This document shows, piece by piece, positions 2,095-46,872 of a stretch of DNA of 64,000 nucleotides. Numbering within the stretch: the first letter of the stretch is position 1; each line of letters opens with the position of its first letter. Under the pieces are notes generated by a model. It was not told where the DNA came from. It did no database searches and saw only the letters and a program-made list of their open reading frames with translations. A program made the position numbers and the translations under genes. Source of the DNA: an uncultured Alphaproteobacteria bacterium (lineage in GTDB: Bacteria; Pseudomonadota; Alphaproteobacteria; Rs-D84); contig CALXMQ010000005.1 in the NCBI GenBank assembly GCA_944389515.1, forward strand, positions 1-64,000, given 5' to 3'.

Positions 2095-2121
2095 AAAAAA
2101 CCACCGAAAAATTCAGGTGGT
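2095..2121 (-). terminator. Intrinsic terminator ending RNA A
   Basis: On the minus strand ACCACC and GGTGGT form a stem around a 10-nt loop, followed by six T. The 5' arm overlaps by three bases the CCTCCAACC segment needed for alternative stem P1, so terminator and P1 compete. Confidence 0.8.
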
Positions 2122-2264
2122 TGGAGGTTCGAAACTATAATCTGGTATAGTGGGTTTATTCTTGATATTCACCCCCTCCAACCCAATTTGGTTGGAGTGT
2201 TTTTATGTCACACAGACACCAGATTCAGGGGTTTCGAATCCCCAACATAGCAACCTGCCATATC
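2095..2264 (-). ncRNA. Structured RNA A: about 170-nt multi-hairpin RNA, candidate attenuator or riboswitch
   Basis: Independent transcript unit with a promoter at 2271-2299 and a terminator at 2095-2121. Helices in transcript order (plus-strand coordinates): H0 2245-2263; H1 GGGG/CCCC 2228-2243; H2 TGTC/GACA 2206-2218, then an A-rich linker; H3 CTCCAACC/GGTTGGAG 2176-2197; P2 GGGT/ACCC (2171-2174 with 2152-2155) closing a 15-nt loop GAATATCAAGAATAA; P3 ACTAT/ATAGT 2134-2151. The segment at 2175-2183 can instead pair over 9 bp with 2119-2127 (alternative stem P1), which invades the terminator stem. The same helices in the same order occur in RNA B at 46.2-46.4 kb. Structure assigned by hand. 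Confidence 0.75.
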
Positions 2265-2688: not shown

Positions 2689-3495
2689 TTATTTGGTAAC
2701 AAAGCATTCCAAACCATCTGCTTTGGCATTACGACAGAAATTATTCGCATCTGCCGCAGTATTAAAGCCAACACGCAATCTGTACATCGTATTGCCATTA
2801 TTCAACACTGCTGCCAAAATCACAAATTGATGTCCACTGAACAAATTCTGATGCGATGCACGCAACTGACGTTGCCCAGATTCTGCCAATGCACGCGTGC
2901 TGTATGAACCCAACTGGGCATACCATGCGAACGTTTTTGGTGCTGTTTGCGCACGTTGTGTCTGCTGGCTTGCACGACGCGCCGGTGCTGGCGCCGGTTG
3001 CGGCTTTGCGGCCGGTTTTGCCACAGGTGCTGGTGCCGCATCAGGCTTAAACGTAACTTCTTTTCTATCTTCGATAACCCGTACAGGAACACCCGGCGTT
3101 GTATTTTGCACTGCTGGTTGCGGCGCCGGTTGTGGTTTTGGTGCCGGTTTTGCCACAGGCGCTGGTGCCGCTGGCTGTGGTACAGGTTGCGGCGCTGGGG
3201 CAACATTTGCCGGTTGTGCCGGTGCACCACCAACAACCAATGTATCATTTGGAACTGCGCCATCCACTATGACAGCCGGCGCATCCAAATCCACTTCCAT
3301 CGTAGATGACGAATCGCCACCAACCATACGAATAATAACGTACGTTGCCAATATAATAATCAGCACCCCAACCGCCATCAACAACCATGGCTTTTTTGGG
3401 CGTGGTGCCGCCAATGGTGCAGCCTCAGGCAATGTATCTGCCGAATCAGCATCATCGTTCAAATCCAATAAATCTAAATTATCGTCATTATTCAT
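2689..3495 (-). CDS. SPOR-domain membrane protein, DedD/FtsN-like
   Basis: A 268-aa single-pass inner-membrane protein with an acidic cytoplasmic N-terminus, a membrane helix at about residues 36-60 (WLLMAVGVLIIILATYVII) and a long Pro/Ala/Lys-Pro periplasmic linker to about residue 185. The C-terminal SPOR domain is marked by WYAQLGSYSTRALAE and YRLRVGFNTAADANNFCRN. SPOR domains bind denuded septal peptidoglycan, so a cell-division or septal role is likely. The low-complexity linker and lack of other domains fit DedD or FtsN-like proteins; which one cannot be said. A promoter is visible directly upstream, and tatA follows. Confidence 0.85.
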   Translation of the reverse strand: MNNDDNLDLLDLNDDADSADTLPEAAPLAAPRPKKPWLLMAVGVLIIILATYVIIRMVGGDSSSTMEVDLDAPAVIVDGAVPNDTLVVGGAPAQPANVAPAPQPVPQPAAPAPVAKPAPKPQPAPQPAVQNTTPGVPVRVIEDRKEVTFKPDAAPAPVAKPAAKPQPAPAPARRASQQTQRAQTAPKTFAWYAQLGSYSTRALAESGQRQLRASHQNLFSGHQFVILAAVLNNGNTMYRLRVGFNTAADANNFCRNAKADGLECFVTK

Positions 3496-46236: not shown

Positions 46237-46406
46237 CGTTGATGGGCGTTCCATCAATGGGGTGTAGTAACCTCTCGTGATTGTCAGCGATGACACAAAA
46301 TATCGCCTCCACTTTCGGGTTGGAGGGTTGTGAATATATTGAATCAACAACACTATTATCACGATAGTTACTAACCTCCAACCACCTATATTTTCGGTGG
46401 TTTTTT
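46237..46406 (+). ncRNA. Structured RNA B: about 170-nt homologue of RNA A
   Basis: Same architecture as RNA A with different sequence in most helices. H0 TTGATGG/CCATCAA 46239-46257; H1 GGGG/CCTC 46259-46274; H2 TGTC/GACA 46282-46295, then ACAAAA; H3 CCTCCA/TGGAGG 46306-46326; P2 GTTGT (46327-46331) with ACAAC (46347-46351) closing loop GAATATATTGAATCA; P3 ACTAT/ATAGT 46352-46368; terminator 46381-46406. GGTTGGAGG (46318-46326) can instead pair with CCTCCAACC (46375-46383) as alternative stem P1. P2, H0 and H1 differ from RNA A by compensatory changes, while the P2 loop and P1 strands are conserved. Confidence 0.75.
46381..46406 (+). terminator. Intrinsic terminator ending RNA B
   Basis: ACCACC (46381-46386) pairs with GGTGGT (46396-46401), followed by a T run. 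The T run itself can pair with AATGAAAAAA downstream (TTTTTTCATT-CGC-AATGAAAAAA), which leaves the GGAGG ribosome site just outside that hairpin. Confidence 0.8.
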
Positions 46407-46434
46407 CATTCGCAATGAAAAAAGGAGGTTTAGA

Positions 46435-46872
46435 ATGAAAAAACATTTATTATTTGTCGGCATAATGTGCGCTGTGACCATCACACCGGCCATGGCCGTT
46501 ACAAAATGCGTCAATCTATCTTCTACTTCAACCACTTGTGCGGGGAATTTGTCATCATCCACAGGTGCAGATTGGTCGGCAACATGTACCACTAATGGTC
46601 AAAGTGTCGATATCAAAGGCGTCGCCGCATGCACTGCGGCAACCACTGGCCGCCCACCCGTAACAGGGACAGCAAAAACGACACTCAGTGCTAACTTGGC
46701 ATCCGGAACTGTTGATTGCTATTGCAAAATGGTCAGTCCTGCCGTATCCAGATGGATTTTTGCTATTCGTCAAGAAAATTGTGGCAGCACCTGTGCAAAA
46801 ATGTGTGCAAATGTATTGAGTTATTCTGACCGGGCAATGGCAAAAACAATGTTCAGCAGCCTTAGTGATTAA
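46435..46872 (+). CDS. Secreted cysteine-rich protein downstream of RNA B
   Basis: No known family. The 145-aa product has a signal peptide (cleavage after AMA near residue 20) and a mature domain with nine cysteines, in spaced pairs such as DCYCKM and CGSTCAKMCAN, which suggests a disulfide-bonded extracytoplasmic protein. The middle is rich in Ser/Thr. GGAGG lies 7 nt before the ATG. The gene starts 28 nt after the RNA B terminator, so readthrough would control it. The next gene encodes another small secreted Cys-containing protein. Confidence 0.7.
   Translation: MKKHLLFVGIMCAVTITPAMAVTKCVNLSSTSTTCAGNLSSSTGADWSATCTTNGQSVDIKGVAACTAATTGRPPVTGTAKTTLSANLASGTVDCYCKMVSPAVSRWIFAIRQENCGSTCAKMCANVLSYSDRAMAKTMFSSLSD

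Follow-up and report, generated by a model that had tools for sequence, protein, structure and literature searches.

An apparently undescribed family of RNA leaders in Rs-D84 bacteria with C4-type layout and a probable role in transcription attenuation

The analysed window, a stretch of 64,000 nucleotides from an uncultured alphaproteobacterium, contains two related structured RNAs, copy A (2263–2095, minus strand) and copy B (46238–46406, plus strand), and the 0.95-Mb genome has at least 20 such copies in all. TatA/B/E-like and SPOR-domain genes (2364–2669 and 2689–3495, minus strand) lie directly upstream of copy A, and a 19-residue reading frame (MKYFLVIFGCALVCMGNWY) with a GGGGGG ribosome-binding site is found between copy A and the nearest long reading frame downstream. 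The parts of both copies and the genes behind them are as follows.

2271–2299, minus: copy A promoter, −35 box TTGCAT (2299–2294), 17-nt spacer, −10 box TAAAAT (2276–2271), recognized by sequence and by the usual distance to H0
2245–2263, minus: copy A hairpin H0 (ATATGGCA/TGCTATGT), located where Rfam c4-a1b1 has its first hairpin
2226–2243, minus: copy A hairpin P0 (GGGG..CCCC), as the a1 hairpin of phage P1, with site a1 TCGAAAC (2237–2231) in its loop
2219–2225, minus: copy A site b1 AATCTGG, the 5′ strand of helix P1b, placed by P1b covariation
2206–2218, minus: copy A hairpin H2 (TGTC/GACA), followed by an A-rich linker (2205–2198), both from the sequence
2190–2197, minus: copy A 5′ strand of P2 (P2-5′), CTCCAACC
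2175–2183, minus: copy A switch strand GGTTGGAGG, with P2-5′ or 2127–2119 (AT helix) as partners
2152–2174, minus: copy A hairpin H3, conserved loop GAATATCAAGAATAA, a loop motif shared with sRNA-Xcc1
2134–2151, minus: copy A hairpin P4 (ACTAT/ATAGT), placed by P4 co-change, antisense loop b′ CCAGATT (2145–2139)
2129–2135, minus: copy A antisense segment a′ GTTTCGA, partner of a1 (helix P1), placed by covariation
2119–2127, minus: copy A 3′ strand of AT, CCTCCAACC, identical with the pre-terminator strand, placed by AT covariation
2095–2122, minus: copy A intrinsic terminator, AACCACC..GGTGG plus TTTTTT, from the sequence, its AACC shared with the AT 3′ strand
2111–2183, minus: copy A match to sRNA-Xcc1 (RF02221), model positions 1–87 of 87, 38.3 bits, gathering threshold 53
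1210–1989, minus: nearest long reading frame behind copy A, 259 residues, signal-peptide-like start
46238–46258, plus: copy B hairpin H0
46259–46275, plus: copy B hairpin P0, a1 TAGTAAC (46265–46271)
46276–46281, plus: copy B b1 CGTGAT
46282–46295, plus: copy B hairpin H2 (TGTC/GACA)
46307–46313, plus: copy B P2-5′ strand, imperfect, CTCCACT
46318–46326, plus: copy B switch strand GGTTGGAGG, the AT 5′ strand
46327–46351, plus: copy B hairpin H3, loop GAATATATTGAATCA
46352–46368, plus: copy B hairpin P4, b′ ATCACG (46358–46363)
46367–46373, plus: copy B a′ GTTACTA
46375–46383, plus: copy B AT 3′ strand CCTCCAACC
46380–46406, plus: copy B intrinsic terminator
46435–46872, plus: exported Cys-rich protein of 145 residues (‘AVTKCV’ family), presumably under the control of copy B, ribosome-binding site AAGGAGG (46422–46428)

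Folding of both regions is far better than that of shuffled sequences (z −4.9 for copy A and −5.0 for copy B, with 0 of 200 shuffles equally good), and the two copies can be aligned pairwise over their whole length with the same parts in the same order. The structured RNA and its recurrence 44 kb away, both claimed in a preliminary description of copy A, are thereby confirmed, as are a promoter of its own (TTGCAT-17-TAAAAT in copy A, with the −10 box close to H0 in most copies) and a terminator of its own, which is present in both copies. The six hairpins drawn there reflected a real structured RNA but missed two conserved, partly exclusive sets of helices, and the 15-nt loop ascribed to P2 is the H3 loop of the present anatomy. 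No Rfam family matched either region at its curated or gathering threshold, in keeping with the earlier view that the RNA is no tRNA, tmRNA, 6S, SRP or known riboswitch, and a search of the window for tRNA and tmRNA found none. Identity with a known Rfam family was consequently discarded, and a significant match speaking against the proposal is absent.

A short H3-loop pattern retrieved three more copies from the genome (947 kb, 14 contigs), and two further ones were found via the gene behind these three. A covariance model (R1) built from five copies, A and B included, scores its training sequences copy A (2093–2263, minus) with 121.8 bits and copy B (46238–46408, plus) with 103.5 bits, and detects 20 copies in the same genome at E ≤ 2.1e-6; 15 of these were not used for training, two being near-identical to a training sequence. 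Such a search had been suggested in the preliminary description, and it uncovered further copies not only throughout this genome but throughout its family and order, the model matching 93 of the 95 family genomes and 132 of the 142 genomes sampled from the order Rs-D84, many of which carry at least 21 or at least 32 copies. Among 289 genomes drawn from the rest of the class only 12 gave matches, all of 1.2–2.2 Mb. Record names from a pattern scan of public genomes pointed to Candidatus Enterousia and its relatives, which came from ruminants, poultry, horses and sources of termite type. According to PMC12306168, the host group belongs to the order Rs-D84, whose members are gut symbionts or parasites with reduced genomes that have not been cultured. 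One record named Candidatus Omnitrophota (L106) contains the short pattern and gives no covariance-model match, which may reflect chance or a mis-binned contig.

In 5′ to 3′ direction, the family is composed of a sigma-70 promoter, H0, P0 with a1 in its loop, b1, the optional H2, the A-rich linker and P2-5′, followed by the switch strand GGUUGGAGG, H3 (loop consensus GAAUAU..GAAUAA), P4 with b′ in its loop, a′, the strand CCUCCAACC, the terminator and a U-tract. The terminator stem reuses the AACC of CCUCCAACC and thus overlaps the closing stem of the core. H2 is missing from the copies preceding XRE-type genes, and one of these (L023, G000:C1:131163–131308) has lost the 5′ strands of P1 and P1b while retaining a GGG..CCC hairpin and the core. 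The −10 box ends 5–7 nt before H0 in most copies and lies within 16 nt of it in 123 of 146, compared with 29% in shuffles. A start codon with ribosome-binding site follows 116 of 147 distinct copies at a median of 25 nt past the match end, which contradicts the initial picture of a simple stand-alone 170-mer. Behind the other 31, no start codon is clearly recognizable nearby, and some of these may be independent RNAs or decayed copies.

The claim that helices are preserved by changes on both sides was upheld with five copies, in which 39 two-sided changed cells were counted compared with 12.3 in shuffles and 2–5 in slid controls, and became stronger with about 145 copies, homologues and compensatory changes being abundant. 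In our own counts on covariance-model alignments of these copies, which treat related copies as separate and so overstate the number of independent events, P1 (a1:a′) is paired in 95–100% per position and P1b (b1:b′) in 85–96% (up to 145 copies), with AU, UA, GC and CG all common and at most 51–63% pairing in shuffled columns. P4 changes from CUAU/AUAG to CAAU/AUUG, a UA-to-AU exchange at one pair that is paired in 97.8% of copies versus no more than 75.4% after shuffling. The nine positions of AT (GGUUGGAGG with CCUCCAACC) are each paired in 94–99% of 142 copies, P2-5′ being often imperfect. A further helix of the first model, P1a (GGGG with CCUC of the pre-terminator strand), is doubtful; copies with a variant P0 arm keep the P0 hairpin instead.

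The strands of AT moreover vary in concert. Compensated variants pair CCUCCUGACC with GGUCAGGAGG, CCUCCUGCC with GGCAGGAGG, ACUCCAACC with GGUUGGAGU and UCUCCAACC with GGUUGGAGA, and in more distant copies an entirely different strand has taken its place (ACUUCCCGAC/GUCGGGAAGU, CUUCCUGCC/GGCAGGAAG and CCUCUCGCC/GGCGAGAGG), with P2-5′ co-changed in most; these distinct types are independent replacements or near to that. P2-5′, switch and pre-terminator strands change together in class-2 copies (CUCCUGA/GGUCAGGAGG/CCUCCUGACC) and in distant copies (UUCCCGAC/GUCGGGAAGU/ACUUCCCGAC and CCUCUCGC/GGCGAGAGG/CCUCUCGCC). Because the switch strand keeps both partners through these replacements, they provide direct evidence for two alternative pairings.

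The 147 distinct copies precede a signal-peptide-like protein in 59 cases, as assigned by a crude hydrophobicity rule rather than by SignalP, another protein in 57 and no clear reading frame in 31. The 57 other proteins are mostly small HTH/XRE proteins, and Pfam HTH_31 was detected in 26 of 95 downstream proteins. The exported ‘AVTKCV’ family has 15 matches in the genome (46435–46872 and 14 more; L238–L252), and the seven best full-length ones all follow an RNA copy. These paralogues are exported and Cys-rich, share an invariant SPAVS and have no Pfam match. One ‘AVTKCV’ gene with an internal TGA (G000:C3:7967–8392) stands behind a truncated RNA (C3:8429–8513), a pair that reads as a case of joint decay (L034/L244). 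At five scattered places (G000:C1:131163, C2:31420, C2:67180, C6:15106 and C12:15672; L016–L019, L023), the RNA forms a module with an 83-residue XRE gene (95–100% identical between modules), the a/b stems being wholly different between several. These near-identical genes, together with the occurrence of sRNA-Xcc1 in integron cassettes (PMC12444791), might suggest an element, mobile or simply repeated, that folds through its inverted repeats at the DNA level, for instance like attC. Against this stand the promoter at fixed distance, the U-tract terminator, the start codon behind and the orientation-specific strand switching, so that we consider such an element highly improbable. As to attC of integrons in particular, the boxes RYYYAAC/GTTRRRY are not found, P1 reading TNRNAAC/GTTNYNA.

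The terminator and a mutually exclusive antiterminator are thus both conserved, as in an attenuator, between a promoter (123/146) and a start codon (116/147). We therefore regard the RNA as probably a cis-acting leader that decides between termination and read-through and that derives from a phage antisense RNA of the C4 type. RNA synthesis would begin at H0 and first expose a1 in the P0 loop and b1, after which the Y-shaped C4/sRNA-Xcc1-like core is made, whose a′ and b′ are complementary to them. In the presumed off state, a1 and b1 are paired in cis with a′ and b′ of their own transcript, which blocks the closing stem AT (GGUUGGAGG/CCUCCAACC); GGUUGGAGG would then be held by P2-5′, leaving the pre-terminator strand free for the terminator, the predicted default. 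If a1 and b1 are kept from pairing, the core could close, AT would occupy four bases that the terminator stem needs, and transcription would continue into the gene of the exported or HTH protein. Candidates for occupying a1/b1 or favouring AT are a processed core of the same locus acting in trans, a protein or a ligand. Comparison of the copies establishes, at the level of sequence, the helices and the competition among three strands, as well as promoter, terminator, the genes behind and the private a/b codes; that the two folds serve as off and on is what we infer from them.

Energy modelling is compatible with termination by default. With nearest-neighbour energies, which ignore pseudoknots and co-transcriptional kinetics and under which a possible coexistence of P4 with P1b as a loop interaction is not represented, the fold with a1:a′, b1:b′ and terminator is favoured in 93–94 of 103 copies by a mean of 8 kcal/mol, and the terminator is the modelled default with a probability of 0.94. 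When a1 and b1 are forbidden to pair, the average modelled probability that AT forms before the terminator is synthesized rises from 0.04 to 0.52; in copy A, AT is not reached even then (0.01). The isolated cores of copies A and B fold as Y-shaped junctions (z −3.8 and −4.0). A default-termination attenuator is hence the most economical reading, well supported by the comparative data. The distant copy L235 (815–1023) is in line with this reading. It has no U-tract, and its pre-terminator strand AACCTCC finds a complement in the ribosome-binding site GAGGAGGTT, possibly constituting a translational version with a different output on the same strand. Class-2 copies (CCUCCUG) carry CAGGAG in 6 of 8 cases versus 6 of 103 (p 1e-5), most of them being paralogues in one genome, which is suggestive only of ribosome-binding-site sequestration as a second layer.

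The H3 loop, the A-rich linker and the junction bases are conserved while the stems vary. This pattern, and the many copies per genome before functionally related genes, would also be expected of a riboswitch-like or protein-sensing leader, in which the H3 loop (GAAUAU..GAAUAA) and the junction would be recognized by one shared ligand or RNA-binding protein, such that 20–30 leaders per genome would answer one signal. The same loop motif, however, occurs in sRNA-Xcc1, described as an sRNA, and private a/b codes would be superfluous for a shared ligand; we consider this reading rather unlikely. The riboswitch families of Rfam gave no match. The codes are private indeed: 15 of 16 copies of the genome pair with themselves, and only 2 of 240 cross-pairings pass the same test. 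This is what avoidance of cross-talk would produce, and a role in trans of the released core is therefore conceivable; core and leader together could act in this way by analogy with C4. Tandem RNA copies with the same or nearly the same a/b code occur in L126, L115, L077 and L055, where the core of the first could act on the second.

One relative in Rfam is sRNA-Xcc1, a mapped RNA of 88 nt (PMC2996969). The 3′ half of copy A matches its full model with 38.3 bits (E 2.4e-5, threshold 53), the aligned portion being exactly AT-H3-P4-linker-AT, and in the genome the same model finds one XRE copy and the diverged copy L190 (best 38.2 bits), which R1 missed, yet which has every part of the layout. 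Both RNAs share the nine-pair AT stem, which closes the C4/sRNA-Xcc1-like core, the H3 motif AAUA..GAAUAA, P4, the six-base linker, the RCC end and the consensus fold, although the copies of this genome remain below the gathering threshold of 53. The notion of a new, unrelated family is therefore retained as regards Rfam matches at threshold and weakened by this sub-threshold match and by the layout of phage P1 c4-a1b1/C4. In 28 sRNA-Xcc1 loci of other Pseudomonadota, a′/b′ form on average 8.4/6.6 pairs with their own upstream region compared with 5.0/4.9 after swapping, and 5.9/6.5 with their own downstream region compared with 4.4/4.5 (permutation p = 0.0002 for all tests). Genes behind sRNA-Xcc1 loci (L195–L224) include antirepressors with Bro-N, KilA-N, P22_AR_N and Rha as well as SymE. 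Hence, sRNA-Xcc1 looks like a C4-type antisense RNA whose a1/b1 sites precede it and whose a2/b2 sites lie at the start codon that follows. RF02221 belongs to no Rfam clan, and in the accessible literature a single paper naming both sRNA-Xcc1 and C4 was found, which gives them as separate annotations.

C4 is an antisense RNA used by phage P1 for immunity. In the phage P1 record, a1 and b1 are annotated upstream of c4 and a2 and b2 behind it, and its sequence displays a hairpin, the a1 hairpin, b1 and a core in which b′ (CACTAAC) occupies a loop and a′ (TGTCA) the linker. The Enterousia RNA has the same Y-shaped core, with closing stem, two hairpins, b′ in the second loop and a′ in the linker, and a1/b1 upstream of it (own match 7.10/7.26 versus 5.24/4.69 swapped). 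The RNA might accordingly be a C4-type antisense RNA that RNase P cuts at the GG of the AT stem, its core of about 75 nt acting in trans on mRNAs or on a1/b1 of other transcripts from its own locus. Core fold, placement of a′/b′ and the 3′ RCC end (CCRC..; 131 of 148 copies) resemble the RNase P-processed C4 (PMC5320573), the sequences offering both the GG start and the RCC end; sRNA-Xcc1 is a discrete mapped RNA (PMC2996969), and tandem copies have common codes. The RCC end is, however, needed for the terminator too, and a2/b2, which the same kind of test detects strongly in sRNA-Xcc1 loci, were not detectable within about 110 nt downstream of the Enterousia copies (own 6.37 and 5.93, equal to 6.15 and 5.80 swapped). 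We thus consider this alternative possible, if less probable than the attenuator. The Rfam C4 model gave no match in the genome at E ≤ 10, and no antirepressor domain was present among the Pfam matches of the 95 downstream proteins. A BLAST search of a phage collection for the origin of the copies returned nothing useful; three viral contigs contain a copy, and since a host-type exported protein follows it in the two examined, L192 and L194 (the same gene), there is no clear phage intermediate. A weak R1 match in phage P1 (L191:3840–3953, minus strand; 19.8 bits, E 0.0015), located in an annotated RNA antisense to kilA, is probably due to chance.

What emerges is apparently a large and seemingly undescribed family of RNA switches, a regulon of predicted leaders with up to at least 32 members per 1-Mb genome before exported and XRE genes, in an order for which we found no regulatory mechanism described. 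More speculatively, and in our view improbably, the switches might form a genome-wide self-insulated regulon in which the released core acts in trans on a1/b1 of the next transcript from its own locus; if so, every exported-protein gene would possess an on/off memory that is heritable and specific to its locus, a principle of regulation without earlier description for cellular genes. The comparison would also tie together RNAs that are filed apart, as sRNA-Xcc1, which has been discussed in connection with virulence, has the sequence behaviour of a C4-type RNA, and it would offer sRNA-Xcc1 a concrete target, the phage antirepressor genes, via a1/b1 and a2/b2. The many private codes constitute a predicted natural set of orthogonal RNA switches.

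Among known systems, C4 (RF01695) and c4-a1b1 (RF03163) share with the Enterousia RNA the order of parts, the RCC end and the specificity residing in short a/b segments. The latter differs by another loop motif in H3, by the lack of a terminator between b1 and core, its terminator overlapping the core stem and a P2-5′ strand being added, and by its position before exported and XRE genes instead of an antirepressor. sRNA-Xcc1 loci also have a1/b1 upstream but, in contrast to the Enterousia copies, a2/b2 downstream. Many C4-type copies per bacterial genome are likewise known from the Group 1 C4-like sRNAs of Acinetobacter baumannii; these are reported to be processed sRNAs, and the accessible part of their description (PMC5320573) mentions no attenuator in which the terminator overlaps and a competing strand lies upstream. 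With trp attenuators and transcriptional riboswitches, finally, the Enterousia leaders have in common that antiterminator and terminator strands which exclude each other precede a start codon. They differ in having no evident leader peptide or known aptamer and in that an antisense RNA and its target site supply the strands that switch.
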